A DNA stretch of 43,080 bases, taken from a virus. This document shows positions 14,549 through 41,128 of this stretch, one piece after another (the stretch's first letter is position 1; the number at the start of each line of letters is the position of its first letter). The stretch spans positions 1 to 43,080 of the IMG/VR virus record IMGVR_UViG_3300019886_000011; one strand, written 5' to 3'. A model generated the notes under the pieces. The model was not told the origin of the DNA. It saw nothing but the letters and a program-made list of their open reading frames with translations, and ran no database searches. Made by a program: the position numbers and the translations under genes.

Positions 14549-14658
14549 GCTAGCCAGCGACGCGCCGACGCGGCTCCTACGCACCTCACGTAGCAGTCTG
14601 GACTCGAGGAGACCATCACCGGTCAGGGCAATCACGGTGAAGAGTCCAGGAGTTCAGT

Positions 14659-15108: not shown

Positions 15109-15117
15109 GAATCCACC

Positions 15118-15792: not shown

Positions 15793-15980
15793 TGCCGAAG
15801 AGCGTCAAGCCGCCCCCAGAGGTATTGGCCGACCCGTTTCACGTGGAGCCGTCGGCCACCTTAGAAACTATTCCCGGCACAGCCGAGGAAGCACAGGCCC
15901 CGGATACGATTCCCGCGCCTGGTCATCCCGACCCCCAACCCGAGTATGTGCCGAGCGCCCGTCGCGCTCCGCAGGAGTAG
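15792..15980 (+). CDS. Small Pro/Glu-rich hypothetical protein
   Basis: 62 residues from ATG 15792, overlapping the previous stop by one base. Nearly all Pro, Glu, Ala (PPPEVLADPFHVEPS, PAPGHPDPQPEYVPS), thus disordered. Only its place in the coupled gene chain supports it. Confidence 0.5.
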   Translation: MPKSVKPPPEVLADPFHVEPSATLETIPGTAEEAQAPDTIPAPGHPDPQPEYVPSARRAPQE

Positions 15981-15983
15981 CCC

Positions 15984-16889
15984 ATGGCCGTCGTTTTTAC
16001 AGCCAACGTCGTCGACACGCTGAAGCTCACGCTCAACGAAATCTGCGACGACAGCCTCACGAATTTCAAAGAGAAGTCCATCTTCGGTGACTGGCTCGAT
16101 GTCGGCAACATGGACGACAACTTCGTGGACGACCTGGAGACCGCGGGTCCCGGGATCGCCGCGGAGAAGCCGGAAGGCGCCGAAATCATCAAGGGCACTA
16201 TCCGCGAGGGCACGCTCACCCGGTACATGTCCCGGACCTTCGGGCTCGGCCTTATCATCACGGAAGAGGCGATCGAGGACTGCAAGTACAAGGAGGTGTT
16301 CCGTGCTGGAGCGCGCCTTGGTCGCGCGGTCTACAAGAGCATCGACATCGACACCACGAACATGCTGGCTCGTGCGACGAACACGGCCTACACGTTCGGC
16401 GATGGTCAACCGCTCGCGAGCGCGACCCACACGCTGCCGAACGGCGGCACCTTCAGCAACTTGCTGACCCCCATCAGCCCGAGCCGTATCGCGATGGCGA
16501 CGGCACGGACCCAGATGCAGATTGCGGCGGGCCACGACGGATTGCCGGAAGGCTACGAGCCCAAGGCCATCGTTTGCCCTTACGGCCAGTGGTACATCTG
16601 GAAGGGGCTCATCGAATCGGAGAAGGCTCCGGACCCGGGCTCATTCAACGAGATCAACGTGGTCAAGGAGATGAACCTGAAGCTGGTCCCGAACCGGTAC
16701 TGGTCGAACACCACGACCAACTGGGCGGTCATCAGCGACGCGGACAACGGGATGAAGTTCCTGTGGCGCCGCAAGCCGACGAACAAGACCTGGGTCGACA
16801 ACGCTCAAGGCTTGATGAACTACGGCATGACTGCGCGCTGGTCGCGCGGCATGACCGACCCACGCGGTGTGTTTTTTAACAACGCTTGA
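15984..16889 (+). CDS. Major capsid protein (HK97-fold candidate)
   Basis: 301 residues from ATG 15984. TANVVDTLKLTLNEICDDSLTNFKEKSIFGDWLDVGNMDD begins an N-arm; TRYMSRTFGLGLIITEEAIEDCKYKEVFRAGARLGRAVYKSIDIDTTNMLARATN is a spine-helix-like region; THTLPNGGTFSNLLTPISPSRIAMATARTQMQ, EPKAIVCPYGQWY and NTTTNWAVISDADNGMKFLWRRKP follow. The overall pattern and length resemble Mu gpT-like and podovirus capsid proteins. Forms the icosahedral shell around the scaffold. Confidence 0.8.
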   Translation: MAVVFTANVVDTLKLTLNEICDDSLTNFKEKSIFGDWLDVGNMDDNFVDDLETAGPGIAAEKPEGAEIIKGTIREGTLTRYMSRTFGLGLIITEEAIEDCKYKEVFRAGARLGRAVYKSIDIDTTNMLARATNTAYTFGDGQPLASATHTLPNGGTFSNLLTPISPSRIAMATARTQMQIAAGHDGLPEGYEPKAIVCPYGQWYIWKGLIESEKAPDPGSFNEINVVKEMNLKLVPNRYWSNTTTNWAVISDADNGMKFLWRRKPTNKTWVDNAQGLMNYGMTARWSRGMTDPRGVFFNNA

Positions 16890-20132: not shown

Positions 20133-21812
20133 ATGCACCTGATTCAAAGCCTAGCCAGTGGCATCGTGGGCGGCGCGAACGGCAGCGTCACGCTCGTTCG
20201 CCGCGGAACGTCGACGCCCGTCCAGTACTTCACTGACTTCGAGGCGACGCAGGCTATCCAAAGCACGCTCGATGGCATCCCGCTCGACGCAAACGGCGGA
20301 CTAGTCGCGTACGTGAACGAGCTGGTCGACGTGACCGTTCTAGACGTGAACGGCGTGCAGCTGCGCGAATTTGTCGCGGGTGACAACGCGAACGCCGTAG
20401 AGGTCATCAGCCCGAGCTTCACCGGGACGGACTACGTAACCGGCGTCACGGGTACGGACAAGCCGACCACGCTGCAAGCGATTCTAGACCTGTGGCTGAC
20501 TAGCGCAGGGGAGCCGGACTTCAACGTTGCGGTGAGCGGCGTATCCACTTCGCTAAAGCTGGCCGTGGCGGGGCTGAGCGGGCTCTTCTTCAATGTGAAG
20601 AGCTACGGCGCCATCGGTGATGGTGTGGCGGACGACGGCGCGGCTATCCAGGCCGCATGTAACGCAGCTGCGGCGACAGACAATGTAGGCGGGATCGTGT
20701 TCTTCCCGCCCGGGACTTACCGCGGTACAACTACCGTTCAAGTTGCCCCGGGCGTAAGCCTTATGGGTTGCGGTGGTACGTCGACTAAGGTTCGGGTGGA
20801 TAACCCGGCGCTAGGAAGCCTGTTTCTTTTCAACGGCGCAGACAGCGGCTCTCGTTCTGTTCAGGGACTTTGGTTCGGAGCGCTGAGCAATTTCACGCCA
20901 CCACTGGTAATTGTCAGCTCAGCGGGCCCATGCGTAGATTTCGTGGGATGCGTATTCGGCGGCGATCCCTTCACCAATGGTCAGCTGCTTAGCGTGAGCG
21001 CGACCGGGCAAGGGTCAAGGACGACCGTTACGCGGTGTACCTTCTACCAAGGAGCCAACGCTTCCTGCATCGTCCAAACGAACAGTGGGCGCATTGCAGT
21101 CAGAGATAGTGACCTGGTGATTACATTTGCTGGCTCGTATAGTAACCAGGTAATTGGTGGGACGGACGGCGTAGCGGTGCACGATTGCCGTTTCAACTGC
21201 GATGCAGTTACTGCTGGCACGCCCGTGTATATCGGGTTCGCCCCAAACACGTGGCAAGGTTGCGTGTTTACCGGCAACTACTTCAAAGGCAGCGCAGCGG
21301 TGACGCCTATCGCGCTGTTCAACGGGCTAGCGTCGCCAAAGTTCGATTGCTACGAAGCCGGCAATGTGTTCGGAGACTCATCGGCAAGTGCCATCACGCC
21401 CTACGCCTACACCACGGACGGATTCGAGACACTGGGCCTTTGGAACGGGTCCGCGAACCACAACTCTCGCTATGGCCGCACGCAGCAAGTGTCCGGAACC
21501 AACGGCTCAGCGTTAGTTTTCGATCCGAAGTCCTACGGGATGGGCGTCATCAAGGTGACGGCAGGCCCAGGCTCGCTCACGTTCGCTGGTAACAAGGGGC
21601 AACTTGGCGACCGCTACGTTCTGGTCGTGGTCAACTCTTCCGGTGGCAACATCATCTGTGCCCCGGACGTGAACTTCGTGCTGGACGCAACCCTGGGACC
21701 GAGCTTCACGGTAGCGACCGGCACGCGACAGGTTTACGAGTTCGTGTGCGTACCGAATAATACGACGAGCACCACGGTATTTGCCCAAATCAGCAAGCCA
21801 GCGCAGACCTAA
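20133..21812 (+). CDS. Tailspike with pectate-lyase-type beta-helix
   Basis: 559 residues from ATG 20133. Residues 1-~150 form an attachment domain. From ~152 the pectate-lyase-3 signature appears: FFNVKSYGAIGDGVADDGAAIQAACNAA and GGIVFFPPGTYRG, followed by many beta-helix rungs and a C-terminal cap (~460-559). In phages such proteins are trimeric spikes that bind and often cut surface polysaccharide. Enzymatic activity cannot be read from the sequence. Confidence 0.8.
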   Translation: MHLIQSLASGIVGGANGSVTLVRRGTSTPVQYFTDFEATQAIQSTLDGIPLDANGGLVAYVNELVDVTVLDVNGVQLREFVAGDNANAVEVISPSFTGTDYVTGVTGTDKPTTLQAILDLWLTSAGEPDFNVAVSGVSTSLKLAVAGLSGLFFNVKSYGAIGDGVADDGAAIQAACNAAAATDNVGGIVFFPPGTYRGTTTVQVAPGVSLMGCGGTSTKVRVDNPALGSLFLFNGADSGSRSVQGLWFGALSNFTPPLVIVSSAGPCVDFVGCVFGGDPFTNGQLLSVSATGQGSRTTVTRCTFYQGANASCIVQTNSGRIAVRDSDLVITFAGSYSNQVIGGTDGVAVHDCRFNCDAVTAGTPVYIGFAPNTWQGCVFTGNYFKGSAAVTPIALFNGLASPKFDCYEAGNVFGDSSASAITPYAYTTDGFETLGLWNGSANHNSRYGRTQQVSGTNGSALVFDPKSYGMGVIKVTAGPGSLTFAGNKGQLGDRYVLVVVNSSGGNIICAPDVNFVLDATLGPSFTVATGTRQVYEFVCVPNNTTSTTVFAQISKPAQT

Positions 21813-23284
21813 TGCCCCAAGCGCCTATCAGCTTCGCCAATCAGCAGGCCACCGGCCAGGAGGTCCTCGGTGGAGCGCCGGGCGTAGCCATGAATGTGGT
21901 AGTCGACGCGACGGGTGCCGTGCGTCGCCGCCCTGGCATCGTAGCGGTTCCGAACGTGTTCTCTGGAGTCGTGGACGCCACGGGCATCTCGGGCCTTTAC
22001 GGGACGATTGGAGGGGCTCTGTACGCGGTCGGCTCGACCCCGCAGTTCCGGCAGATTTACAAAGTGGGGCCGACTGGCGCCGTGGCGCTCGGGCTTCCAA
22101 CGAGCGACTCGACGCTGGCTGGCACGCTCCGCCCGGTGTTCGCTGAAACCCAGCTGCTGCTCGTCATCGCGGGTGGCGACAAGATGGAGAAAATCGTCCT
22201 GTCCTTGAGCGCGTCCAGCCGGCTCGGTGGCGACCCGCCCTTCGCTTCGCATGTCGCGGCGAATAGCTCGCGTCTACTCGGCAACCTTGCGGCGGTCAGC
22301 GCCAACAACACGTTCGACCTTTCGGTGGTGCGATTCAGCGACATCGCCAGCGGCAACGCGAGCTTCGCCGGCATGGAGGAATGGACCGAAGGGCTCGGAA
22401 CGGCTGGCCACTTCAGCTGCGAAGCCGACCCCGACCCGTGCTTGGCCATCTACGAGAATACGAATGAGGTGTTTTGCTTCGGGAACACGTCGCTCCAAAT
22501 CTTCGACCCCGACCCCACCGCAGTCTACGCTCCGGCGACCACCCGCGAGCTGGGCTGCGCGGCCCCATACAGCATCATCAAGCTGAACCAGCAGTTCGCG
22601 TGGCTAGACAACCTTCGACGCATCGTGATGTCGGACGGGCGCTCTGAGCAGGTACTGAGCGACCCCATCAAGAAGACGCTCGACGACATGACTACGGTGA
22701 GCGGCTGCTACGGCTTCCGCTTCATCCAGGGTCCAGTAGACGCCATGGTGTGGGTGTTCCCCACGGACGGGCGCACGTTCGCCTTCCAGCAGAACTCTGG
22801 CTGGGCCGAATGGAGCGGCTGGAGTGACTCCAAGAACAACTGGGCCCCGTTCCCAGTGACCGCCGCCCACCTTACCCCGTCGACCCACGATGTGATGGTG
22901 GGGACTAACCTCGGCCAGGTCGGCAAACTTTCGCTCGACGCTCAGACCGATTTTGGCTCACGAATCAACGCCCGCGTGGAAACCGGGTACCTCAATCGAA
23001 GCTCGGATATGCGCAAGAAGTGCAACTGCGTCTACCTGTCGCTACGGCGGGGGCAGAGCTTCGGGACGGTTGGTCCGCAGGCTTACCTGAGCTGGCGGGA
23101 CCAGCCGGGGGCGTATGGCTCGCCCATCCCCATCGATTTGGGAAAGCTTGGCGATACGGAAATTGTGGTACCATTGCGGTCATTGGGCGTGTACAGGCGC
23201 CGGCAGTGGAAGTTTGAGTTTTCGGGTGCTGAGGCCCTGGAGCTTGTGAGCGCGACGGAAGACTTCGACGTTTGCGATACGTGA
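21812..23284 (+). CDS. P22 gp10-like tail hub / packaged-DNA stabilisation protein
   Basis: 490 residues from ATG 21812 (one-base overlap). N-terminal NVVVDATGAVRRRPGI, then repeated strands GISGLYGTIGGALYAVG, LLLVIAGGDKMEKIV, SLQIFDPDP, AWLDNLRRIVMSDGRS, MVWVFPTDGRTFAFQQNSGWAEWSGW and MVGTNLGQVGKLS. This is the beta-propeller-like pattern of P22 gp10-type hubs, which close the portal and carry the spikes. Confidence 0.72.
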   Translation: MPQAPISFANQQATGQEVLGGAPGVAMNVVVDATGAVRRRPGIVAVPNVFSGVVDATGISGLYGTIGGALYAVGSTPQFRQIYKVGPTGAVALGLPTSDSTLAGTLRPVFAETQLLLVIAGGDKMEKIVLSLSASSRLGGDPPFASHVAANSSRLLGNLAAVSANNTFDLSVVRFSDIASGNASFAGMEEWTEGLGTAGHFSCEADPDPCLAIYENTNEVFCFGNTSLQIFDPDPTAVYAPATTRELGCAAPYSIIKLNQQFAWLDNLRRIVMSDGRSEQVLSDPIKKTLDDMTTVSGCYGFRFIQGPVDAMVWVFPTDGRTFAFQQNSGWAEWSGWSDSKNNWAPFPVTAAHLTPSTHDVMVGTNLGQVGKLSLDAQTDFGSRINARVETGYLNRSSDMRKKCNCVYLSLRRGQSFGTVGPQAYLSWRDQPGAYGSPIPIDLGKLGDTEIVVPLRSLGVYRRRQWKFEFSGAEALELVSATEDFDVCDT

Positions 23285-23291
23285 GGACCCC

Positions 23292-23954
23292 ATGAGTGTT
23301 TGGAGTTGGCTAGGCCTAACAAGCGACCCCGCGCAGGATGCCGCGAACAAGGCTGCTGACCAGAAGGTCAAGCAGGGCAAATCTGCGGCGATTGCACTGG
23401 AGAACTACCGACAGAACTCGCGAGACCAGTATCACCAGCTGCTTACGCGGGAGATGGCGCCCTACCAGGCATACAGTAACCGACTTGCGGCCCTCACGGG
23501 CACAGGCATGTCAACCGCCGGACTGTCAGCGAGCGAGAACCCGCTGTCACTGCAAGACACCGGGGTGGGTGCCCCGGAAGGCTCTAACTATGCTGGTTGG
23601 ACGGACAAGAGCGGGCCGAACGGGCAAACCGTCGTTCATCAGGGGATCGGGTCGTACCTGAACCACACGAACGTCCCGGAGACAGACGGCATGGCTCCGC
23701 CGCCGGACCAGCGCGACGCTCAGGAGAAGCTAATGGGATTTCTGAATGGTCAGGACCCGAGTGGGAATTATTCCGCAAACGGAACTCCATTTCGGCAGCA
23801 ATCTGCCGTGGTGAATGCGGACCCTTATCATGTGGCGCAATCCCAGGACCCGACGCTAAATCCGACCTATGACCCGCGCTCTGCTGGGCTTACTCCAGGC
23901 GGCGGCGGATATTCGCCCGGGGCTGGAATCAGCTTCCATCCGAGGGGGCGCTGA
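23292..23954 (+). CDS. Putative injected or tail protein
   Basis: 220 residues from ATG 23292. Helical N-terminus (DPAQDAANKAADQKVKQGKSAAIALENYRQNSRDQYHQLL), then Gly/Ser/Pro/Asn-rich and disordered. First of a five-gene block with similar composition that ends in the 1195-residue protein, the position of the ejection proteins in P22-like phages. Confidence 0.5.
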   Translation: MSVWSWLGLTSDPAQDAANKAADQKVKQGKSAAIALENYRQNSRDQYHQLLTREMAPYQAYSNRLAALTGTGMSTAGLSASENPLSLQDTGVGAPEGSNYAGWTDKSGPNGQTVVHQGIGSYLNHTNVPETDGMAPPPDQRDAQEKLMGFLNGQDPSGNYSANGTPFRQQSAVVNADPYHVAQSQDPTLNPTYDPRSAGLTPGGGGYSPGAGISFHPRGR

Positions 23955-24877
23955 TGGCTTCTCAGCTCTATGACCCCAACTCCCAGACGTACAGCCCCGG
24001 CGGGACCAGCTTCGGGACGGCCCCGCCGTACAACCCGAGCGCGGGCGCTGTCGGTGGTGGGGCGGGTGGTATCAACACAAATTCGACCTCCATACCGCTT
24101 ACCATGACCGGATCATCCACGGCGCCAGCCTTTTCAAACAGCCCGGCTCCACCTACGGACGCAGGCTTGCAGCCCGGGCAAGGTACGCCTGGCGATGTTG
24201 GATACAACGTCAACGTGCCAGGCGCGGGCGAGAACGTATCGGCTTCGTATCTGGCCCTCTACGGTCAGAACGGCACCCCGACCGCGAGCAATAACGCGCA
24301 GCAAGCGTACACGGATTTCCGCAACTCTACGCCTGCGAATATGGACCCGTACTACGACAACGCCCAGCGGAACTCGGCGAACGATATCAACAAGCAGATG
24401 GCTGCGCGAGGCCAGTACGGCAGTTCGAATGCGGTGGGCGTGCTCAGCAACGCTTCGACGAACCTGCGCGCTCAGGAGGCCAAGGACAATGCGCAGTATG
24501 GTATTTCCCGGTATGGGCTCGAGGGGCAACTGGCAAGCGGATCGGATGCGTCGTCGGTGAATCAAAGTCAGAACGAGGAAAATTGGATGAAGGGTCTCAC
24601 GGACCTGGGCTTCGCCAATGAGAAAGAGGGCGCTGCTCGCGCGCAGCTCGGGCTCGACTGGACCAAGGGCGCAGCGGATACGGCTTCCGGCATCGAAGGC
24701 AGCGTGGGCGCGAGCGAGATCGCGGCGGACAAGGACCTCCTCATCAAGCAACTCACGGCCAGCGGCATGTCGTATGCTGACGCTGCCGCTGCGGCAGACA
24801 ACCGCGTGGCCGCCGGCAATGCACAGGACGCGCGCGCGACAGCCACGGTGACATCAGCCCTGGCGTACATGGTGTAA
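23954..24877 (+). CDS. Putative injected virion protein (P22 gp7-like position)
   Basis: 307 residues from ATG 23954. Disordered Gly/Ser/Thr-rich first third, then helical DPYYDNAQRNSANDINKQMAARGQYGSSNAVGVLSNASTNLRAQEAKDNAQYG and an Ala-rich C-terminal half. This pattern resembles internal ejection proteins. The assignment is by composition and place. Confidence 0.5.
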   Translation: MASQLYDPNSQTYSPGGTSFGTAPPYNPSAGAVGGGAGGINTNSTSIPLTMTGSSTAPAFSNSPAPPTDAGLQPGQGTPGDVGYNVNVPGAGENVSASYLALYGQNGTPTASNNAQQAYTDFRNSTPANMDPYYDNAQRNSANDINKQMAARGQYGSSNAVGVLSNASTNLRAQEAKDNAQYGISRYGLEGQLASGSDASSVNQSQNEENWMKGLTDLGFANEKEGAARAQLGLDWTKGAADTASGIEGSVGASEIAADKDLLIKQLTASGMSYADAAAAADNRVAAGNAQDARATATVTSALAYMV

Positions 24878-24878
24878 A

Positions 24879-25712
24879 ATGGCCGAATACAATCCGCCGC
24901 CGCTCGCCTATCGCCCACGGGATGCCTCGGGGGAAGCCGCGGAATTGCAAAATTCGCTACTGGCCCCGCTGCGCTTCCGTAACGAGCGCAAGCAGCGAGA
25001 CCAAGAGAACACCTATCGCAACGCGACGCTGGCGCGCGAAACCGAGCGAGACAGGAACGCGAACGAGCGCGACCGCATCAGCCAAGAGCAGCGCGCGCGC
25101 CAGATGCTCTCCGAAGACAAGCGAGCCGGCCAGCGCGAAAGCCTGTACGCAACGCGAGAAGCGCGGCGCCAAGAAGAGGCTATGTTCAACCGGAACCGGC
25201 TGCTCCAGCAAGAGCACGAGGCGCTCATCAAAGAGCTACACGACTCGCTCAACGACCCCGGGCAGGACCCAATCGCCAAGCAGAACCGCATCAAGGCAGC
25301 CCAGGAAGCGCTCCATCGAGCCGGCTACGCCACGGCCGAAGACGAGGATACGCCGGACGGTCCCACGCTTCCGTCACCCGTGGCGCCCGCTCCGGAGGCA
25401 CCGTACGACTCCACGCTTGGCGATGAATTCCTGCCAGCCGAGCAAGACGGCCCAGGGGTGTCCATGGGCAGGGGCGGCACGGCGAAGCCGGTGCCGAAGC
25501 TTCCGGCGAAGAAGAAGCTGACCCCTCGGGAGACCGCTTCGCTCAGTACGCAGCTCGACAACGTGGACCCGACGCAGGGGATGTCCAAGCTCCCGCCTAC
25601 CCCGTTCCTGCCTGGGCAAAACCCCGTCGCGCCGCGCCCGCAATCGTTCCAGGTGGCCCAGTCGAACGCGATGCTCTCCCCCGACGACCCTCTCAACAAC
25701 CCGCCCCAATGA
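24879..25712 (+). CDS. Putative injected virion protein, coiled coil
   Basis: 277 residues from ATG 24879. Residues ~30-115 are an extremely charged coiled coil (RFRNERKQRDQENTYRNATLARETERDRN...; RQEEAMFNRNRLLQQEHEALIKELHDSL). The C-terminal half is Pro-rich and disordered. Stop overlaps the next ATG. Suggests an internal virion protein that must unfold for ejection (inference). Confidence 0.5.
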   Translation: MAEYNPPPLAYRPRDASGEAAELQNSLLAPLRFRNERKQRDQENTYRNATLARETERDRNANERDRISQEQRARQMLSEDKRAGQRESLYATREARRQEEAMFNRNRLLQQEHEALIKELHDSLNDPGQDPIAKQNRIKAAQEALHRAGYATAEDEDTPDGPTLPSPVAPAPEAPYDSTLGDEFLPAEQDGPGVSMGRGGTAKPVPKLPAKKKLTPRETASLSTQLDNVDPTQGMSKLPPTPFLPGQNPVAPRPQSFQVAQSNAMLSPDDPLNNPPQ

Positions 25713-26893
25713 CCGACAACGGACCCGTGATGCCCTGGCTTCCTGGTCACTCCCCAGTGGCAGGGGTTCCGTACGCGCCGCTCACGCTGCCGGGGATCAA
25801 TGATGGCACCCAGGCGCCACCTCCCGCGCCCTACGGTATGCTCGCGGGCCAGCGCCATGTGCTGCCCGACCAAATAAACTTAGACCCGCAGCCGGTCAAG
25901 CCTGAGGCCATCAACCTGGACGAGCCGAGCGAGCCGAATGCGCCTCCCGGTGCCGCGCCGGATGCTCCAGGGCCCGGCGTGCTCCCGCAGACGCACAAGC
26001 TCCGCGCTATCCGGGTGATGAACGACAAGGGCGAGGTGGTCGCCAATATGCCAGTGAACGACGAAGCCACGGGCAACGACTATTACAAGCGCCACATCCA
26101 AGCGATCGGCGACTCCCTGATGAGCCAAGCGATGAACCCCGCCGACAAGGCGGCGGCTGCTACGGCGACGCAGTTCGGTATGTCGCTTATCGGCTTGATG
26201 CCGTTCAAGGACATCCAGAAGGCAATCATCAGCCACTACGAGGCGGATGAGCGTAACGTTATCGCGCGAGAGACGCAGGCAGCCAAGACGGCGCGCGCGG
26301 CGGCGATGAAAGGCGGCCCTGCTCCGGGTGGACCAACGAAGGGTGAGAAGGCTGGGGAACTCATCGACAAGGACGTGGAGACGCTCGCCGATAGCAAGCT
26401 CAAGGACACAGAGTCACAGTCGAAGCTTTCGGCGCTAAACGCATACGAGCAGACCATCGACCAGCTCGAAGCGCAGATGGCCGGCAATGACGCGATGTCG
26501 CAGCGTGCGGCCATTGCCGAGTACATGAAGACGCTCACCGGCAAGCAGTCTACGGATGTGGAGCGGCGCCAAATCCTCGGGGCCAACGGCGCCATCGACC
26601 GCATCATGAACGACTTGAACCTTTGGAATCCGAGCGACGCCTCGCTGACAAAAGCGTTTCGCCAGGCGTTCATTCGCAACGTGGGCATCATGCGACAGAA
26701 CGTGCAGGCGGCGCGGGCTAAGATTGCCGCGCAGGCCGGCGCTGCTCTCGAGCACAGTCCGTTCATCAAGAAGCATGGCGATGCGGCGGAGTACAAGAAG
26801 TACGGCACAGGACGGATTAGCGGCGACTACGGCGACACGCAGCCAGCCGCTCCAGCTCCGGTCGCTCCACACTTGCAGAAGTACCTGAAATGA
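25709..26893 (+). CDS. Putative injected virion protein
   Basis: 394 residues from ATG 25709 (ATGA overlap). Pro-rich N-terminus, then a helical body from ~100: GNDYYKRHIQAIGDSLMSQAMNPADKAAAATATQFGMSLIGLMPF, a coiled stretch SKLSALNAYEQTIDQLEAQM, and RRQILGANGAIDRIMNDLNLWNPSDASLTKAFRQAF. No enzymatic motif seen. Stop overlaps the next ATG. Confidence 0.5.
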   Translation: MTDNGPVMPWLPGHSPVAGVPYAPLTLPGINDGTQAPPPAPYGMLAGQRHVLPDQINLDPQPVKPEAINLDEPSEPNAPPGAAPDAPGPGVLPQTHKLRAIRVMNDKGEVVANMPVNDEATGNDYYKRHIQAIGDSLMSQAMNPADKAAAATATQFGMSLIGLMPFKDIQKAIISHYEADERNVIARETQAAKTARAAAMKGGPAPGGPTKGEKAGELIDKDVETLADSKLKDTESQSKLSALNAYEQTIDQLEAQMAGNDAMSQRAAIAEYMKTLTGKQSTDVERRQILGANGAIDRIMNDLNLWNPSDASLTKAFRQAFIRNVGIMRQNVQAARAKIAAQAGAALEHSPFIKKHGDAAEYKKYGTGRISGDYGDTQPAAPAPVAPHLQKYLK

Positions 26894-29800
26894 TTTCCGA
26901 CGCGGACTACAAGGAGCTGAAGGGCCAGGAAGCCAACCTCAACGACAAGGGGAAGGCGGCGGTACGCGACTACGAGATGCTCCAGGCCGCAAAGGAGCCC
27001 ATCGAAGCGCCGCGAGCCGTAAGGGAAACTGCTCCCGCGAAGGTGAACGTTCCGGAGCTACCACCGGAGCAGGCTCCTGCCGCGCCGGCTCCCGATAAGC
27101 TTCAAGCGTTTTCGGATGCGGTCAACGCTGGCGCCGACGATTCGATGGACGCCTCGCTACCGAACGCCTCCAAACTCAAGGCGCTCAATACGCCCCCCGA
27201 GTACGTGGCCAAGAGCCGGATGAACGGGCTGAAGCATATCGCGGCGGCGGTCGGTCAAACGGCGCAGGATGTGGCCACGCTCGGGCCCGTACTCGGGGCA
27301 ATTCATTCGCGTTCGCCGCTCGATGCAAACATGTACTACGAGCCGAGCGAAGAAGAGTTTGCGCGGGACCAAGCGCCGGTAATCCGAGCCAGCGGTTTGA
27401 CGCCCGGGACCGATGACTACCAGACGGCGTTCGATGTCTGGAAGGACAAGAAGTGGCATCAGGCCTACAAGCAGGCGGAAGCTGAGGACCGCCCGCTGAC
27501 TCGCGTGGCGCACGTCGCCGACAACGGTAGTGCATGGGACAAGCTCAAGAACTACGTCGAGCAAGCCCCGGACATCGCGCAGTCGTTCGCTAAGGGCGCC
27601 GCAGACTTTCTGACTCTTCACCAGGCTTCCGCGCTGCCGAACTACGTTGAAGACAAGCTGGCGGGAAACCACGCGCGGCGCGATGAAAGCGCATCCCAGG
27701 ACGAGCGCAACCCGCTCGCCACTGGCGCGGGTGAGATTGCGGGTAGCGCGCTGCCCATAGGCCCCGTTGCGGAGGCTACGGGCTTCGTCGGCAAGAAGCT
27801 GCTCGGCGCTGCGCCAGGGGCGTTGCGTGGGCTCGGCCGCTCTGTTGCGGGTGGCGTGGCTGGCGCAGTCACTGACCTTGCGGGCCGTGCTGCGGCCACT
27901 GGCGAGCAAGACGACAGCATGGGGAGCGCCAAAGACCGGTTTATGAGTGGGCTCTTGCCGACCATTGGTGTCGCTGGTGGCGGCTCTATTCTCGGGCACC
28001 TTGCGGCCGGTGGGGGGAACTGGCTTCAAAAGTCGAACGTCCAGGCGCATCCGGAGATTGCCGACCTGTTCCGCGGTGGCGGAGAGACGGCAACGCTTCG
28101 TGGTGTGGTGCCTGGCGAGGAGGTCGCGGCGAACCTGGAGGCGGCGCGCCCCCCGGCTTACGGCGAGAACAAGCCCTACCCCGAGGCGAACGCAACCGAG
28201 GTGCAAGCTCGGAAGCTCCGTGAGCCGCTGGCTGCGGAGAACGCAACGGCGCGCGGTGAGTTGCCTCAGCGCTTCGCGGCAGAGAAGGATGCGGCGTTCG
28301 CGGCAGATCCGAACCTTCAGAAGCCGGTGCCGGTACGGCGTACCGCGCAGGGCGCTGTGGATTGGCTCCTGGGTGAGCTTCAACCGAAGGCGGCTGACGC
28401 CTACTTCCCGCTGAAGAAGGTGCTGCCGGAGGACGTGGGTCCCGCGGCGAACGTGTCTGCGGCCAGGGAGCTGCTGCCTCAGCTTGTGAGCGGTCACGTC
28501 GTGACGGCGGCGGACGCGAGCGGGATGGCGGAGCGCAACATCGGTAGGTCGCTGACCATCGAGGAAGCGCAGAAGATCGGGCTCGACGTGCCGGGCATGC
28601 TGAAGAAGCAGGGGCTCAGCACTACGATCAAGACGGAGTCTCCGCCGGCTACTGCGCTCGACGCTGAAGGCGTACCTAACAACGCGCCAGCAATCCCGAA
28701 TGAGCCCCTGAACGTCGCACAGGTACTGCCAAAGTACTCGAAAGAGCAATTGGCTACGGCTGGCGGGGTGGGGGAGGCGACACCCGAGCAAGCGGCGGCG
28801 ATTCAGCGTTACACCTTCGGTAAGCGAAGCGACGGCGACAACGATCTCATCAACGAGTACCTGTCAAAGGCGCCCATTTCGCCTCTCCCGCATGTGTACC
28901 GTGGTCTCACGCTGACCCCCGATCAGGCCGCGGAGATGCTATCTCAGGACACGTTTACGACGGGCAGCACGCCCACGTCGGTATCGTCAAGCCCTATCGT
29001 GGCACGCTCCTTCGTTGCTCGGAACTTGGAGCCTGGGGACGTGGGTGTGACGCTCAAGCTGGAGCACGCTTCGGCGCGCAATATCCAGCCGTTTGCGCAT
29101 GACCAGGTGAAGGTCGAGGGCGAACTGATGCTGCCCGAGAAGCGGTCGTTCGAAATCATCAGCAAGCATAAGGACCCGACCAACCCGGGGAACTGGATTG
29201 TTGTCGCGAAAGAGGTGCCGAGCGCTACCGATGCTGGGATGTCGACCACTGAGGAGGTATTTGGGCGGCCCGCCGACAAGCTCGCCCCGGGCGCAGCCGA
29301 CCGACTCAAGCCCCGCGAAGGACGAGCGTTCAAGACACCCACGGGCCCACTCGGTTCGGAGTGGTTCGACCAGGCGAAAGCCGCTGAAACCGTTGCTCTT
29401 CACAGCGGGGACTACGCGGTATCCGATCCGTTCGGTGGCTGGAAAAACACGGTGCCATCCGGGCGAGGCCCGCTCGACACCCCGACGACTCCGGGCACCC
29501 CGGATGCTCCGCCTTCTGTTCCGTCGATTCGGCCCACGGGCGCCCCCTCCGCGCTCCGCGCCGCCGATCCCCCGTCGCTCGCTTCCGCGCCCTGGCAAGG
29601 CCCGCTCCGCCAGCAAGAGACCATCAACGGCATCCCCATCGGCGAGTACCGCGTAGTCATCAAGCCGAACGAGTACAACGCCCAGCAATGGGAGAAAATC
29701 ATCGGCAACATCGACGACCGGGCAGGCGAAGGTGCACGGGCTAGAGGAAAAGTCGACCCCAACTGGGAAAAGCTCCAAGCCGCCGCGCGCGCCGACCGCG

Positions 29801-30477
29801 ACCAATTCGGCAAGCCCTGGACTGACCTGATTGCTCGCCACCACGAAATCAGCACCCAAATGGAGCAGCGCTCCGGGCACGCTGGCCTCAAGGAGCGCAA
29901 GCCCTACAGCGAAATGTCCCCCGAGGGGCATGCCACGCTGAACGGCCAGCTCCAGGGCTATCCGAATACGGACGAGGCTCGCGTCGCGATGCGCTCGATC
30001 GCTTCCGACGCCGACGCTCGAGCCAAGGCAATGGCCGATCTAGCCGGCCAGGCGCCACCTCCAAGCGTCCTTCACGAGCTGGACATCCTCGGTGCCCAGC
30101 ACGCCTACAAGCGCCTCAGTGGGGAAGCCATGCCCAAGCTTGCGGGCACCGCCGGCTTTGGGGGCGTCACGGAGCACATCCGGGGATTTGGGCCAGCCAT
30201 GCGCCTCCGTTCGGATGCGGTAGCCCGAGCCATTTCCCGGGGCCCTACGGGCGAGCCCACCATCAGTCCCCGTCTCGCTGACTTCCTTCGCAACGCTTCA
30301 CCAAGCCCCCGACCACTCACGGGAATGATGAGCATGGGCGGCGGCGCGCTGGGAATGAAGGCGGGCGTGGGGTACAATACCGCGCGAGACGAGCTGACCA
30401 CGAGCCAAAAGCAGCTACTCCAAAGACTCATAGAAACCGCGGCTGGAATGAACCAAGCGACCCAAGAGGCACCATGA
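26890..30477 (+). CDS. Large putative injected protein with ADP-ribosyltransferase-like domain
   Basis: 1195 residues from ATG 26890. N-terminal ~400 residues are helical with a Gly/Ala-rich stretch (~280-380) that may insert in or cross membrane. Residues ~650-780 match an arginine-type ADP-ribosyltransferase: VYRGL (R671), FTTGSTPTSVSSSPIVARSF (STS-like T696-S701), VTLKLEHASARNI, then VEGELMLP with an E-x-E pair (E743, E745). Further regions are Pro-rich linkers and a helical C-terminal domain. Last and largest gene of the injected-protein block. ADP-ribosylation of a host protein on entry would parallel T4 Alt (inference). Confidence 0.65.
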   Translation: MISDADYKELKGQEANLNDKGKAAVRDYEMLQAAKEPIEAPRAVRETAPAKVNVPELPPEQAPAAPAPDKLQAFSDAVNAGADDSMDASLPNASKLKALNTPPEYVAKSRMNGLKHIAAAVGQTAQDVATLGPVLGAIHSRSPLDANMYYEPSEEEFARDQAPVIRASGLTPGTDDYQTAFDVWKDKKWHQAYKQAEAEDRPLTRVAHVADNGSAWDKLKNYVEQAPDIAQSFAKGAADFLTLHQASALPNYVEDKLAGNHARRDESASQDERNPLATGAGEIAGSALPIGPVAEATGFVGKKLLGAAPGALRGLGRSVAGGVAGAVTDLAGRAAATGEQDDSMGSAKDRFMSGLLPTIGVAGGGSILGHLAAGGGNWLQKSNVQAHPEIADLFRGGGETATLRGVVPGEEVAANLEAARPPAYGENKPYPEANATEVQARKLREPLAAENATARGELPQRFAAEKDAAFAADPNLQKPVPVRRTAQGAVDWLLGELQPKAADAYFPLKKVLPEDVGPAANVSAARELLPQLVSGHVVTAADASGMAERNIGRSLTIEEAQKIGLDVPGMLKKQGLSTTIKTESPPATALDAEGVPNNAPAIPNEPLNVAQVLPKYSKEQLATAGGVGEATPEQAAAIQRYTFGKRSDGDNDLINEYLSKAPISPLPHVYRGLTLTPDQAAEMLSQDTFTTGSTPTSVSSSPIVARSFVARNLEPGDVGVTLKLEHASARNIQPFAHDQVKVEGELMLPEKRSFEIISKHKDPTNPGNWIVVAKEVPSATDAGMSTTEEVFGRPADKLAPGAADRLKPREGRAFKTPTGPLGSEWFDQAKAAETVALHSGDYAVSDPFGGWKNTVPSGRGPLDTPTTPGTPDAPPSVPSIRPTGAPSALRAADPPSLASAPWQGPLRQQETINGIPIGEYRVVIKPNEYNAQQWEKIIGNIDDRAGEGARARGKVDPNWEKLQAAARADRDQFGKPWTDLIARHHEISTQMEQRSGHAGLKERKPYSEMSPEGHATLNGQLQGYPNTDEARVAMRSIASDADARAKAMADLAGQAPPPSVLHELDILGAQHAYKRLSGEAMPKLAGTAGFGGVTEHIRGFGPAMRLRSDAVARAISRGPTGEPTISPRLADFLRNASPSPRPLTGMMSMGGGALGMKAGVGYNTARDELTTSQKQLLQRLIETAAGMNQATQEAP

Positions 30478-30887
30478 GCGAAACGGCACGGCTGAAATAC
30501 ACTGGCAGCGCACTTCCTGGAAACGCGGAGGTGGTCTCACTGTTCGATTCCGTGGTGGCATTCCCGGGCGCGAGTTATCTGCCGATGTTGCACATGAAAC
30601 GTCTGCAACTGGACATCCTTCACGACCAGGCAGGCACGCTGAAGTGGTACAAGACCCAGAACAGGGGACAGTCATCGGTACTCGGCGCCGGCTCGTCGGC
30701 AACGACTGTGTGGCTCCAAATCGGAACACTGGCAGTGGCTGCACCCGCTGCGAACACCACGGATACTTTCGATTTCCTCGTCGAGGAATACGCTGACTTC
30801 AAGCTCGAGTGGACGAACGGAGCGACGCCGCAAACCGTGTTCAGCGTCGACGTGGCGCTCTCTGACGAGCGCAATAAGGGCACATGA
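30474..30887 (+). CDS. Small virion-like beta protein
   Basis: 137 residues from ATG 30474 (ATGA overlap). Alternating strands: AEVVSLFDSVVAFPGASYLPMLHMKRLQLDILHDQAGTLKWYKT, TTVWLQIGTLAVAAPAANTTDTFDFLVEEYADFKLEWTN. Likely a small structural protein; no family recognised. Confidence 0.6.
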   Translation: MSETARLKYTGSALPGNAEVVSLFDSVVAFPGASYLPMLHMKRLQLDILHDQAGTLKWYKTQNRGQSSVLGAGSSATTVWLQIGTLAVAAPAANTTDTFDFLVEEYADFKLEWTNGATPQTVFSVDVALSDERNKGT

Positions 30888-34370: not shown

Positions 34371-34850
34371 ATGGACGAAAAAACCATCGCACGATTCTGG
34401 GCAAAAGTCGACATCACGCCGGGCTGCTGGGAGTGGCGCGCGGCAAAAAATAAGCAGGACGGATATGGTGTATTAAGCCGGGGCGATGGTAAGCTGATAT
34501 ACGCACATCGCCTGTCGTGGCTGCTGCACTCCGGACCGCTGCCAGACGGCATGTGCATCTGCCACAAGTGCGACAATCCGACCTGCGTGAACCCTGACCA
34601 CCTGTTCCTGGGCACACCAGGAGCCAACACCAGGGACATGATAGAAAAAGGGCGCTCGCGCTTGCGTACCCACGGGTTCTTTGGTGAGACTTCAGGAAAC
34701 GTTAAATTGAACGCAGAACAGGTGCTAGAAATTAGGCGCAAGGCAGCGACCGAAAAAAGGTGCATGGCAAGGCTAGCTCGAGAATTCGACGTATCCCCTT
34801 CGCAGATTCATCGGATCGTGACCCGCGAAGCGTGGCCCCATTTGCCATGA
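34371..34850 (+). CDS. Free-standing HNH homing endonuclease
   Basis: 159 residues from ATG 34371 with GAGAGG upstream. HNH_3 pattern: CWEWRAAKNKQDGYGVL, AHRLSWLLHSGPLPDG, CHKCDNPTCVNPDHLFLGTPGANTRDMIEKGR (C64, H65, C67, C72, H77). C-terminal NAEQVLEIRRKAATEKRCMARLAREFDVSPSQIHRIV is a helix-turn-helix that positions the enzyme on DNA. Located alone between convergent late and early operons, as mobile HNH genes often are. Confidence 0.88.
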   Translation: MDEKTIARFWAKVDITPGCWEWRAAKNKQDGYGVLSRGDGKLIYAHRLSWLLHSGPLPDGMCICHKCDNPTCVNPDHLFLGTPGANTRDMIEKGRSRLRTHGFFGETSGNVKLNAEQVLEIRRKAATEKRCMARLAREFDVSPSQIHRIVTREAWPHLP

Positions 34851-35961: not shown

Positions 35962-37680
35962 TCAGGCGCCTCCTGACGCCAGCCAGCTCAATTGCTTCAC
36001 ATCCACTCGTTCAGGCTTCCAGTTGCAGGTCTGCGCCACGTAGGTCAGCGCACGCCCGGCGTTCTTGAAGCTCACGCTCTTGTCGTCGAGTCCGTAGCGC
36101 TTCAGCTGCGCCAGTTGCGCGTAGGTCGCTAGCCCTGCGTCGTGACGCTTGTTCCGCTCCATGAGTAGCTTCTTGGCTTCGCGCTCGGAGATGCTCGCGA
36201 TGGCGCCAGGCGGGACCTTCATCTTCGCTAGCGCCTCCTTCTGCTTTTCGGTGGCAGGCAGTCGCCCCCAACGCATGTCGTACCGAGTCGTGCTGCTCAG
36301 GTCGATGTCGAGCACCGCGAAGGGGTTGAAGCTTCGAACGTTCGCCGAGACCTTGGAACGCACCGCGGCGGCTACCGCTGCAAGTTCACGACGGGCCTCC
36401 TCCAGGCGCTTGCGCACATCGCCTCCAGGATTCTCCTTCGCCTTACGCTTGGCCTCTTCGACCTCCGCGTCGCTGTAGTCGCCGCCTAGTAGGTCTTCCG
36501 GCGTGATGAGTGCATGCTTCGTGGCGTTCCCGACGAAGTCTAAGACTAAAAGTGTCGATTTTTGGCTCGCTGCCACGGCTGCCCGCCGCTCTCCCGAGCC
36601 TTCGGCGCCGTGGATATGGTCTACCGTGCCCGGTAGCACCCTGGTTCCGCGCCCTACGGTCTGCGCGTAGAACATCCGCGACTTGGTGGGGCGCCCCTGG
36701 ATGATGAGCGAGGTAGCCGGGGCGTCAAAGCCTTCGATCGCGATACCCACGTTCATCAGCCGGCGGAGCTTGCCAGACCGGTAGTCAGCCGTGATTCGGT
36801 TGCGCTCGGTCGGGTCGGTTCCGCCGTGAATGAAGCCGGTGCTCTCGGGCTCCAAGGCGTTGAAACGTTCCGCCGCGTACTGGGCGGATTTGATGCCCGG
36901 GAAAAACCCGATCGCCTGCCGGTGCCGCTCCAGCTCCAGCGTCTTGCTCACGATGCCTTCCACGGCTCGCACCATGACCTCGTCCAGCTGCCCCTTGGCC
37001 AAGTCGCCAGCCACATCCTTGATGCCGTCCAGGACAATCTCACCAAGCTCGATTTGCTTGCCGGCGATAGGCACGAGGTACCCGGCTTCGATGCCCTGGA
37101 GAATATCGAAGCAGTAGGTGACCGAGTCAAACACTTTGCCCAGGGCCTTTTCGTCGGCACGGTCGGGAGTGGCTGTGACCCCGAGCACCTTCGCGCCGGT
37201 GAAGAAGTCGAGCGGTCGAACGTAGGTGTTGTCGCAAAAATGATGTGCTTCATCGCAGATAATCAGCGAAAAGTGGTCCTTTCCGTACCGGTCGAGACGG
37301 TGCTGCTGCTTGATGGTATCGATGCTCGCCATGACCAGCTGAGCTTTTCGCGACGCCGTCTCTCCCGCCTGGTCGACCTCGCACGGCACCCCGCACACCC
37401 GCTCCAGATGGGTCCGGCCCTGCTGCACGAGTTCGTTCCGATTGGCCAGCACCAGAACGTTGCCTCGCCCCTCTCGAATCCAGCGCCGAGCGAGCGAACT
37501 AAACACGAACGTTTTGCCGGTCCCCGTTGCCATCACGAGCAGCTGAGAGCGGTACTCATCGAAGCCGCCCCAAGATGCCTCACAAGCCTCTGCCTGGTAG
37601 AACCGAGCGCCAGGCCACGGGTCGGCTGAGACGGTCTCCTGAATGGCAGGGCGGGTCTGGAATAGCGATTGCTGGCTCAT
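35962..37680 (-). CDS. DEAH-box helicase, superfamily 2
   Basis: 572 residues from ATG 37680, preceded by GAGGGCGG. Walker A ATGTGKT (51-57), DEAH (143-146), motif III TATP (169-172), and QTVGRGTR (340-347) as motif VI. Organisation matches type III restriction-type/SSL2-like helicases found in phage replication modules. C-terminal ~120 residues contain a coiled region and a small domain (KYG..SFKNAG). Likely works with the DnaA-like protein and Erf in replication or recombination. Confidence 0.88.
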   Translation of the reverse strand: MSQQSLFQTRPAIQETVSADPWPGARFYQAEACEASWGGFDEYRSQLLVMATGTGKTFVFSSLARRWIREGRGNVLVLANRNELVQQGRTHLERVCGVPCEVDQAGETASRKAQLVMASIDTIKQQHRLDRYGKDHFSLIICDEAHHFCDNTYVRPLDFFTGAKVLGVTATPDRADEKALGKVFDSVTYCFDILQGIEAGYLVPIAGKQIELGEIVLDGIKDVAGDLAKGQLDEVMVRAVEGIVSKTLELERHRQAIGFFPGIKSAQYAAERFNALEPESTGFIHGGTDPTERNRITADYRSGKLRRLMNVGIAIEGFDAPATSLIIQGRPTKSRMFYAQTVGRGTRVLPGTVDHIHGAEGSGERRAAVAASQKSTLLVLDFVGNATKHALITPEDLLGGDYSDAEVEEAKRKAKENPGGDVRKRLEEARRELAAVAAAVRSKVSANVRSFNPFAVLDIDLSSTTRYDMRWGRLPATEKQKEALAKMKVPPGAIASISEREAKKLLMERNKRHDAGLATYAQLAQLKRYGLDDKSVSFKNAGRALTYVAQTCNWKPERVDVKQLSWLASGGA

Positions 37681-37686
37681 CCGCCC

Positions 37687-38010
37687 TCAGGCGTCGGCGG
37701 CGCTGGTAGCGACGGGACCGGATGCCACGATGTTGAACAGTGCCCACGTGCGAGGGAAGCGTTCAGCGAGCAGCGTGCCGACCGCCTCGGCGTAGACGCG
37801 AATCTCGTACTGAGCTGTTTTTGGCAGACGAAGCGCGGCAAACGCCAGCCAATTGCGGAGGTCCGTCGAGGCTCGCATGGTCGAGTAGCGCCCGACTGGC
37901 ACGCACAGGCGCGCAAGCTCCTTCGGTACGCCGCGAGCCATGCCGCTCTGGTAGACGCGCTCAGCATGCTCGTACACGTCCGCAAGCTCGGTTTCGGTTG
38001 GGGCGCTCAC
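37687..38010 (-). CDS. ThyX C-terminal-half protein
   Basis: 107 residues from GTG 38010 (GTGA overlap). YEHAERVYQSGMARGVPKELARLCVPVGRYSTMRASTDLRNWLAFAALRLPKTAQYEIRVYAEAV matches the second half of flavin-dependent thymidylate synthase, including G-x-x-x-E-x-AR, the Asn-bearing helix and AQ-EIR. The N-terminal half with the RHR-x-x-S motif that binds FAD is missing (family usual 200-250 aa). Either a decayed gene or a minimised protein. Confidence 0.7.
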   Translation of the reverse strand: MSAPTETELADVYEHAERVYQSGMARGVPKELARLCVPVGRYSTMRASTDLRNWLAFAALRLPKTAQYEIRVYAEAVGTLLAERFPRTWALFNIVASGPVATSAADA

Positions 38011-39065
38011 CGCTCAACACCAGCGCAACGCCGAATATCCTCCAGAGCCCTCTCCGTACTCGCGAAAAAATGCGGAGCACGCCCGGTACTCGCACGATAA
38101 ATCATGCCGCCCGCTAGAAACGGACCGAATTCCGACTCGAGCTTCTTCCCCTCGTCGCCAGCCAAAACGATCGCCCAGCCCGCGCGGCAATGCGTCGTTT
38201 CGCACGTATGCCATTGGCTCATATCGAGCGTCCCGCTGCCCGTGGTTACTGCGGTGAGAATCTTGCGATCGAGGTCTTCGACCACCGGAACAGCGGGGTT
38301 GCGCTTTAGAAATCTCTCAGCGCGCTGAGAGAGTGTTTCGGCGGACGGCGTCTCGCGTTTGTATGGTTCTGGCGGGTCTAATTTTTCTGCTCCAGGATCG
38401 AGGTACGCACCCGCGAGGTTCGCACGCGCGAACCTCGCACCTACGAGGTACGCACCCGCGAGGTTCGCACCCGCGAGGTTCGCACCTACGAGGGTCGCAT
38501 CCGCGAGGTTCGCACGCGCGAGGTCCGCATCCGCGAGGTTCGCACGCGCGAGGTTCGCACCTACGAGGTACGCACCCGCGAGGTTCGCATCCGCGAGGTT
38601 CGCACCCGCGAGGTCCGCACGCGCGAGGTTCGCACCTACGAGGTACGCACCCGCGAGGGTCGCATCCGCGAGGTACGCACCCGCGAGGTTCGCATCCGCG
38701 AGGTCCGCATCCGCGAGGTACGCATCCGCGAGGTTCGCATCCGCGAGGTTCGCACCTACGAGGGTCGCATCCGCGAGGTTCGCACCCGCGAGGTACGCAC
38801 CCGCGAGGTACGCACCCGCGAGGTTCGCACCTACGAGGGCCGCATCCGCGAGGTTCGCACGCGCGAGGTTCGCACCTACGAGGTACGCACCCGCGAGGTC
38901 CGCACGCGCCGCAACTGCCTCGATCAAAGCATCGCGCAGGTTGTCTGCGTTCACGCTGGTGTAGATGACGATTCCGGATCGGTTCTTGATGACAAACATG
39001 GTTTTCTTTCGGGGTAATTCGGGCGCCGTGGTCGGGTGTTGTCGCCAGCCGTTGGGCTTACTCAC
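38007..39065 (-). CDS. Pentapeptide-repeat protein with C-terminal phage domain
   Basis: 352 residues from GTG 39065 (GTGA overlap); ATG 38999 gives 330. MFVIKNRSGIVIYTSVNADNLRDALIEAVAA precedes about 34 pentapeptides (A-[DN]-L-A-x), a right-handed quadrilateral helix that can mimic DNA. The C-terminal ~100 residues (LDMSQWHTCETTHCRAGWAIVLAGDEG, GGMIYRASTG) form a domain often attached to phage pentapeptide arrays. The role is unknown; gyrase mimicry is known for some family members only. Confidence 0.85.
   Translation of the reverse strand: MSKPNGWRQHPTTAPELPRKKTMFVIKNRSGIVIYTSVNADNLRDALIEAVAARADLAGAYLVGANLARANLADAALVGANLAGAYLAGAYLAGANLADATLVGANLADANLADAYLADADLADANLAGAYLADATLAGAYLVGANLARADLAGANLADANLAGAYLVGANLARANLADADLARANLADATLVGANLAGANLAGAYLVGARFARANLAGAYLDPGAEKLDPPEPYKRETPSAETLSQRAERFLKRNPAVPVVEDLDRKILTAVTTGSGTLDMSQWHTCETTHCRAGWAIVLAGDEGKKLESEFGPFLAGGMIYRASTGRAPHFFASTERALEDIRRCAGVER
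38396..38906. repeat. 15-bp tandem repeat within the pentapeptide gene
   Basis: About 34 units of cgcgaggttcgcacc-type sequence with variation at fixed positions, each unit one pentapeptide. The DNA is far more uniform than protein needs alone, suggesting recent expansion or gene-conversion-like homogenisation. Confidence 0.85.
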
Positions 39066-40057: not shown

Positions 40058-40416
40058 GGGTTCTCCAGCCTTTCCAAGATGCGTTGCAGGCGCTCGGCAA
40101 GGTCGAGCATGGTTTCGTCCTCGTAGATGTTCTTGCCGAGCCCGAATCCTGACAGTGTCACATGTCCGCACACCTTACCGCCAACGATCAACGGCTTGTG
40201 TGGCCCCGGCAATGGGTTGGTTTCGCCGGCATCCCAGCGCTTGCATGCAGCACCGTGAGCCTCGCGCTCCGCGTCGGTTGAGCACTCGTGATCGGGACTG
40301 AACTTGCGAGGGTCCCCACCGTGGAAGTGGCCATAGCTCACCGACGAACTCTCGGCGCGGCACTCGTTCACGATTTGGCGAAGTTCATCTAGAGCCTCGG
40401 CTTCGCGTTCGCTCAT
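40054..40416 (-). CDS. Conserved phage protein with HGGDPRKFSPD motif
   Basis: 120 residues from ATG 40416 (ATGA overlap with the Erf stop). N-terminal helix, then YGHFHGGDPRKFSPDHECSTDAEREAH and GLGKNIYEDETMLDLAERLQRILERL. I have seen the HGGDPR-F-PD pattern in phage proteins of unknown function. An operator-like TGACAGTGTCA (40150-40160) lies inside it. Confidence 0.65.
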   Translation of the reverse strand: MSEREAEALDELRQIVNECRAESSSVSYGHFHGGDPRKFSPDHECSTDAEREAHGAACKRWDAGETNPLPGPHKPLIVGGKVCGHVTLSGFGLGKNIYEDETMLDLAERLQRILERLENP

Positions 40417-41123
40417 GGCTGGACCTTCAACCCTTCCAGCTTCGACACCAGGACCAAGCCGTTCAGCTCGGAGAGTCCGCCCAAAGCCCCTAGGCTATTC
40501 TTGAGACTGAAAGCTTCCAGCTCCGCCATAGTCATGCCGGCCTGCTGGGCCAGCTCTTTGACCCTGGCTTTGGTTTCGGTCGTTATCGCGCCCTGGGCGG
40601 GCCCTGGCGCTTCTTTGGGGGCTGGGCGGGCGGCAACCTGGGGCGGAGCTTGGCGCGGCGTAATAGTCGCCTTGTGCCCTCCAGCCTTGGCCCCGTCATC
40701 ATCCTCGCCGGACGGGAACACTGATAGCAAACTCACTCGCGCGTATCGCTTGGCATACGTGACGGCAGACCCGTACTCCTGCGGGCCGCTCCAGGGGAAC
40801 ATGGGAGAGGTGGACTCGATGCGGGCTGGGCCGTGCGCCAACACAGTCAACAGAGCGTTGCCCTCCTCTACCGGCAGCTGAATTAGAGCCAACTCGTATT
40901 TGGTCAGGGCCGGCTGAGTGGCCGCTATTACAACGTCCAGTCCGGCATAGTCGAAGGTGTACTGTCCTCCCGCTTTCATGGCGACTTTGGCCGTGCTGTC
41001 CTTGAGCACGGGCATAAACTCGCCCTGGGCTTTGGCCAGCGCTAGGAAAAGCGCAGCCAGCTCGGCGGGCTCTCCCACAAACTTCACATCTTCCCGAATT
41101 ACGGGAGCTTGTACTTCATCCAT
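40413..41123 (-). CDS. erf: Erf-family single-strand annealing protein
   Basis: 236 residues from ATG 41123. ERF landmarks in order: LAKAQGEFMPVLKD (28-42), YTFDYAGLDVVI (55-66), PALTKYELALIQ, the hydrophobic strand LLTVLAHGPARIEST, then PQEYGSAVTYAKRYARVSLLSVFPSGEDDDG (114-143). C-terminal ~50 residues form a separate helical domain (ETKARVKELAQQAGM...). Erf rings anneal complementary strands in phage recombination and circularisation. The frame is open upstream through the hexanucleotide repeat, but this start is clear. Confidence 0.9.
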   Translation of the reverse strand: MDEVQAPVIREDVKFVGEPAELAALFLALAKAQGEFMPVLKDSTAKVAMKAGGQYTFDYAGLDVVIAATQPALTKYELALIQLPVEEGNALLTVLAHGPARIESTSPMFPWSGPQEYGSAVTYAKRYARVSLLSVFPSGEDDDGAKAGGHKATITPRQAPPQVAARPAPKEAPGPAQGAITTETKARVKELAQQAGMTMAELEAFSLKNSLGALGGLSELNGLVLVSKLEGLKVQP

Positions 41124-41128
41124 TTCGG

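Follow-up and report, generated by a model that had tools for sequence, protein, structure and literature searches.

The virus represented by IMG/VR record IMGVR_UViG_3300019886_000011 (43,080 bases, a single record analyzed over its full length and referred to here as the window) encodes a protein of 1195 amino acids (aa) in which an ADP-ribosyltransferase (ART) domain had been predicted from the sequence, raising the question of whether a small phage delivers such an enzyme into its host along with its DNA. Comparative analysis indicates that this is probably an ejection protein, carried inside the virion, and that it bears in its linker a mono-ADP-ribosyltransferase module that would act on host proteins at entry. 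The phage itself, short-tailed and P22-like, is represented in metagenomes only. The parts of the protein on which the identification of the enzyme depends are the following:

26890..30477, plus strand: putative ejection protein, 1195 aa, cysteine-free, carrying the ART domain, in the position of P22 gene 16
28705..29232, plus strand: ADP-ribosyltransferase domain, residues 606-781 (the stretch modelled)
28900..28902, plus strand: R671, the R of R-S-E, within Y-R-G; R in 7 of 9 domains, H in 2 of 9
28978..28986, plus strand: S697-V-S699 (S-x-S); S697 invariant in 9 of 9 domains
29116..29124, plus strand: E743-G-E745 (E-x-E); E745 invariant in 9 of 9 domains, residue 743 being E, F or Q

The open reading frame (ORF) starts with ATG and overlaps the upstream stop codon by 4 bases. 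The 1195-aa protein has no match among the Pfam, PHROG and NCBIfam models, and the window domain, searched alone, found nothing in viral contigs or the PDB. Relatives were collected by scanning viral contigs with the Hc3 head-closure gene as an anchor, which yielded 83 distinct loci (designated by L numbers); a recognizable homolog of the 1195-aa protein lies in the same place in 50 of these, the window included. The ART domain is carried by nine of the 50 distinct phages (the window, L002, L017, L023 (= L026), L024, L027, L031, L065 and L087), its absence being unproven in six ART-less loci that end at a contig edge. The count of nine carriers was reached by profile iteration, and among 12,102 ORFs the profile matches only the large protein. 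The nine domains share 15-51% identity.

Residues ~606-781 are an ART domain of the R-S-E type (arginine, E-x-E), as several lines of comparison indicate. A profile of seven domains recovers from the PDB Vis (4xzj, E = 4.7e-15) and Tre1 (6dre, 7e-8), followed by ExoT, HopU1, CdtA and other ARTs. To avoid circularity, a leave-out set was assembled from the domains of five relatives, excluding the window and L002: its alignment finds Vis in the PDB at 9.5e-11, and its profile, run over 4992 ORFs, recovers L002 (5e-6) and the window (3e-5) and nothing else beyond its own members. L027 alone matches the Alt-like RNA polymerase ADP-ribosyltransferase family of PHROG (4.5e-7), a match that the window protein itself lacks, and L017 alone matches a Pfam ART family (1.3e-3); a direct search for Pfam PF03496 in three relatives and the window gave no match. 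A hidden Markov model (HMM) search, proposed as a check of the original prediction, fails with the window protein by itself, for which no library model matches, and succeeds with the family and leave-out profiles.

The residues on which that prediction was founded (R671, S697-S701 and E743-G-E745) are numbered correctly, and the span given for them, 28870-29215, fits the modelled domain at 28705-29232; of the serine motif, the start at S697 stands but the whole run to S701 does not, the catalytic motif being S697-V-S699. The bare order of such residues proves nothing, because 32% of the sequences obtained by shuffling the 1195-aa protein show an R/S.S/E.E order in loose form. A strict pattern (aromatic-R-G / S-x-S..A..F / E-x-hydrophobic) is present in 5 distinct proteins among the 4992 ORFs of the relatives, versus 0.35 expected from shuffles, and all five are the same syntenic ORF.

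An AlphaFold2 model of residues 606-781 (predicted local distance difference test, pLDDT, 84.7; predicted template modelling score, pTM, 0.83) places R671 and E745 in strands, and in a fold search against the PDB every one of its top 50 matches has the ART fold (best E 3.4e-10, to Vis). Viral fold matches of the model include T4-type Alt/Mod enzymes as well as MuF and portal fusions. The predicted fold is therefore that of ARTs and not an unrelated one, and the ART-type domain originally proposed is borne out by the family profile, the leave-out profile, the model and the fold search alike.

Where the domain sits in the protein is shown by comparison with relatives that lack it:

26890..28629, plus strand: N-terminal core, common to ART-less relatives
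28627..29646, plus strand: slot between both cores (family-model position 620), with ART domains or other segments there across phages
29647..30474, plus strand: C-terminal module (residues ~920-1195), common to ART-less relatives

The window and L002 align with the ART-less L006 across both cores, the ART lying between them, and further presence/absence pairs are L017 versus L022, L026 versus L004, and L031 and L027 versus L030. The DNA flanking the insert is 70% and 77% identical between L002 and L006. In a model of the ART-less L006 protein the slot stretch (560-618) is unstructured (pLDDT <50) and has well-folded helical cores on both sides. Most inserts in the family alignment fall before one model position, 620; the ART of L024 sits further in, near position 690, and other long segments are found at the slot in L049 (8972-12277), L106 (16717-20019), L052 and L112. 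By eye, the slot segments of L049 and L106 resemble winged-helix domains.

The nearest ART-bearing phage is L002, the ART stretch of which is 51% identical to that of the window (N-terminal core, 33%; C-terminal core, 36%). L027 and L031 have cores that are 55-63% identical and ARTs that are 26% identical, and similar ARTs are located in separate branches of the Hc3 tree (L023 and L065, 51%; L024 and L087, 46%). On this tree the nine carriers require at least 8 changes in ART presence, a count that cannot separate gain from loss. From the presence/absence pairs, the divergent ARTs on similar cores and the changes on the tree, it follows that the ART module has been gained, lost and exchanged among relatives. 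The G+C (guanine plus cytosine) fraction of the ART stretch (0.61-0.63) is slightly under that of its flanks, a difference too small to show recent import.

Ejection of the 1195-aa protein with the phage DNA is an inference that is well supported: the P22-like gene order, the absence of cysteine, and a core that is mostly helical in the model, its sequence showing Gly/Ala-rich stretches, all speak for the suggestion, made at the outset, of a putative injected protein. The neighboring genes concerned are:

21812..23284, plus strand: head closure Hc3, P22 gp10-like (PHROG 578, 2.8e-24), the anchor for finding relatives
23292..23954, plus strand: 220-aa cysteine-free protein, same operon
23954..24877, plus strand: 307-aa cysteine-free protein; most relatives have it at this position
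24879..25712, plus strand: 277-aa cysteine-free protein, same operon
25709..26893, plus strand: 394-aa cysteine-free protein, same operon, with related proteins in at least nine relatives
30474..30887, plus strand: 137-aa next gene, found beside ART-less relatives too

The genes for terminase, portal, capsid and head closure are followed by small genes, and a single long gene ends the series. This order is as in P22 (10-26-14-7-20-16), and recurs in phages P26218 and VvAW1, in which one gene of the cluster is annotated 'DNA ejection'. The 307-aa gene and the core of the 1195-aa protein look like ejection proteins of P26218 and VvAW1 by eye, a homology that was rejected as unsupported by profile comparison. 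The last gene of the cluster in Vibrio phage VvAW1 (L035, 18962-29884) encodes a 3640-aa protein with no cysteine that is annotated as DarB-like antirestriction, so that a further effector occupies the corresponding position there. In L028, a gene upstream of where the large protein is encoded has a lytic tail protein/transglycosylase-like domain (14433-16676; PHROG 2013, 4.7e-11).

The five genes at 23292-30477 specify no cysteine in 2393 aa, and the Hc3, tailspike, portal, capsid and terminase proteins of the window have 3-16 cysteines each. The ban extends to all 50 family members (0 cysteines in 45,484 aa, trimmed to start codons) and to the nine ART domains (0 in 1774 aa); that the ARTs, too, are free of cysteine suggests that they move together with the rest of the protein. 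As a yardstick, ejected proteins of T7, P22 and N4 (controls that include T7 gp15 and gp16, P22 gp7, gp20 and gp16, and the N4 virion RNA polymerase, vRNAP) contain 2 cysteines in 7952 aa (0.25 per 1000), versus 59 in 8832 aa (6.7 per 1000) for other virion proteins. N4-like virion RNA polymerases are cysteine-free, which their authors tie to passage through the tail and periplasm (PMC3715699, PMC3915230, PMC2784036). T4 ModA and ModB, which are made inside the cell, have 3 cysteines each.

According to the mechanism proposed here, the protein would be packaged in the head and would leave through the tail with or before the first DNA, helping to build a channel. The ART domain would be carried into the host cytoplasm on the ejected protein, would refold there, and would use host nicotinamide adenine dinucleotide (NAD+) to ADP-ribosylate at least one host protein before any phage gene is expressed. 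It is an evenly balanced proposition that the longest ejection protein of this podovirus lineage serves more generally as a vehicle whose cargo can be exchanged. The slot would be a disordered linker between conserved cores that accepts diverse ARTs (E-x-E, Q-x-E, F-x-E and H-variant active sites) or other segments, all cysteine-free for passage through the tail and periplasm, and the whole would be a modular, virion-based system of enzyme delivery in small phages.

Several observations weigh against an ejected ART. Profile comparison found no sequence homology to a named ejection protein, a fold search of the ART-less core model against solved structures gave no match, and the sole hint from the family is a weak match of L016 to PHROG 342, 'internal virion protein' (1.3e-5); as no homolog was found, the protein is called ejection-like here for its position and its composition, and is not classed as a homolog. 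A search with the whole 1195-aa protein against cultured phages (INPHARED) turned up no relative that carries it. Not all cysteine-free proteins are ejected, since cysteine is likewise missing from P22 gp26 and from the major head protein of N4, and the injected T4 Alt has 3 cysteines, so that the cysteine rule does not cover every injected enzyme. Finally, a profile of the window and L002 alone finds no ART in the PDB, so that recognition depends on the more typical relatives; in viral contigs it finds only L002's own contig. In tblastn searches three of the ART domains have no relatives among cultured phages, and an Hc3 profile scan of genome contigs for a host clue found no relative.

The alternative that survives best concerns the target alone, not the enzyme or its delivery: the delivered enzyme may disarm a host defence, for instance through modification of a defence protein or competition in NAD signalling, instead of reprogramming transcription and translation in the manner of T4 Alt. 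Because the exchange pattern of the module fits an arms race, a defence-related target is a serious possibility, to which we give tentative credence: patchy presence, exchange and rapid divergence fit such a race better than they fit a conserved target such as RNA polymerase, and the corresponding, likewise cysteine-free last gene of VvAW1 carries an antirestriction annotation. On the other side, no defence target has been identified, and the best studied phage ARTs, T4 Alt and Mod, act on RNA polymerase and translation proteins. Whatever its nature, the target may differ among phages, as is suggested by the changes at residue 743 together with the exchange of domains between relatives; such differences would be natural for a weapon directed at the machinery or the defences of the host. 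Residue 743 is E in the window, L002, L031, L024 and L087, F in L017, L023 and L065, and Q in L027, and residue 671 is H in L024 and L087. E-x-E marks the arginine type of ART, and Q-x-E occurs in active C3-type ARTs, which modify other residues. The replacement of R671 by H and the F-x-E and Q-x-E variants hint, from sequence, at different substrates, and a change of target with residue 743 is plausible.

The same substitutions, and the lack of the domain altogether in most relatives, could be taken to mean that the ART-fold domain is catalytically inactive and has a binding or structural function in the ejection channel instead. We consider this unlikely: three domains (window, L002 and L031) retain the complete R-S-ExE set, neither E745 nor S697 varies among the nine domains in spite of identities of 15-51%, Q-x-E is familiar from active enzymes, and the ART of the window is better conserved with respect to L002 (51%) than are the cores (33-36%).

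It is comparably doubtful that the protein is a structural part of the virion that is not ejected, or that the ART acts in the periplasm and not in the cytoplasm. This alternative gains from the lack of any sequence or fold match between the core and a known ejection protein, and loses from the gene order, which is that of P22 7-20-16, and from the total cysteine ban, which is shared with T7 gp15/gp16, P22 gp7/gp20/gp16 and N4 vRNAP. NAD+, moreover, is a cytoplasmic substrate. The C-terminal part of T7 gp16 has been modelled in the cytoplasm (PMC8954989). Last, the explanation considered first, that the motif arose by chance in a helical protein of low complexity, draws on the frequency of the loose order in shuffles (32%) and the absence of a library HMM match to the window protein, and is refuted by the relatives, the leave-out profile (3e-5), the well-scored ART model, its PDB matches and the conserved active site, which leave it a negligible chance.

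The 137-aa next gene was considered as an immunity partner of the ART and rejected, because it occurs with and without the ART; no immunity gene was seen travelling with the ART at the loci compared. Elsewhere in the window, the terminase large subunit (7911-10475, plus strand) probably contains an intein near its C-terminal end (Pfam Hint_2 at 493-529 and Intein_splicing at 546-806), and a pentapeptide-repeat protein (38007-39065, minus strand; Pfam, 1.5e-36) is possibly a DNA mimic. The window also encodes an HNH endonuclease (34371-34850, plus strand), a DEAD/SF2-type helicase (35962-37680, minus strand) and an ERF-type recombinase (40413-41345, minus strand).

ARTs have been reported in ~30% of myoviruses and 3% of podoviruses (PMC9503650). 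Against that rarity in podoviruses, an ART is present in nine of the 50 related phages, which have late genes of the P22 type, and always in one and the same protein, which is probably injected. Provided that the enzymes are functional, small phages modify their hosts with enzymes that arrive at entry, before gene expression, and nature already supplies slots that are empty, filled with an ART or exchanged, which can be compared to find the targets. The complete cysteine ban, ART modules included, offers a cheap sequence test for proteins and enzyme domains likely to pass a short tail, and low cysteine content might be used more generally to predict which proteins are ejected.

The T4 Alt protein is an injected ADP-ribosyltransferase of RNA polymerase. 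The domain described here resembles it in belonging to the R-S-E clade and in its predicted entry with the DNA. Alt differs in being a dedicated head protein of 682 aa, with 3 cysteines, from a phage with a contractile tail, whereas the ART of the window is a module inserted into a protein that is long, lacks cysteine and belongs to a P22-like phage; the difference in architecture from T4 Alt that was originally pointed out thus holds. The nine-domain profile matches Alt weakly (E 4.8e-4, in a search of that single sequence), and ModA and ModB at 1.2e-9 and 5.8e-7, respectively (in a search of those two sequences). The closest solved structures by profile and by fold, Vis (4xzj) and Tre1 (6dre), are bacterial toxins or effectors and not phage virion proteins.

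Among podoviruses, the present ART is not the first in an injected protein, being preceded by that of Roseovarius Plymouth podovirus 1, in which an ART of the H-Y-D clade is fused to an N4-like virion RNA polymerase (PMC5512222). That fusion is an example of the polyvalent proteins with ART domains; it resembles the present case in being a large podovirus protein with predicted injection and an ART among its parts, but the ARTs of such polyvalent proteins are of the Tox-ART-HYD2 (H-Y-D) clade and not R-S-E. Polyvalent proteins are large, associated with the virion and made up of 2-15 domains, several of them effectors for early infection (PMC5512222). The 1195-aa protein has one detected effector domain, the ART, beside its cores; searches with Pfam and PHROG detected no RNA polymerase, peptidase, helicase or methylase domain in it. 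R-S-E ARTs of the Alt/VIP2 type are fused to MuF or portal proteins and are thought to be delivered (PMC9503650), and share with the present case the fusion of an R-S-E ART to a head protein with presumed delivery. The 1195-aa protein differs in having no Pfam or PHROG match to a MuF or portal domain, in being an ejection-like product of the late operon, and in carrying the ART internally.

The gp16 proteins of T7 and P22 are similar to the 1195-aa protein in being encoded by the last and longest gene of an ejection cluster and in being helical, cysteine-free and mosaic (PMC8954989), but have no detectable sequence or fold homology to it. T7 gp16 also includes an enzyme domain, an N-terminal transglycosylase, whereas the ART lies in the middle of the protein, and ejection proteins are known to swap one enzyme domain, the peptidoglycan hydrolase, among themselves (PMC8954989). 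No description of an R-S-E ART within a P22/T7-type ejection protein was found in the literature searched, in which coverage of subscription journals was limited. Injected or head-packaged phage ARTs are thus an established theme (T4 Alt, MuF fusions and polyvalent proteins: PMC5512222, PMC9503650), to which the present case adds a recurrent slot sampled over many relatives.
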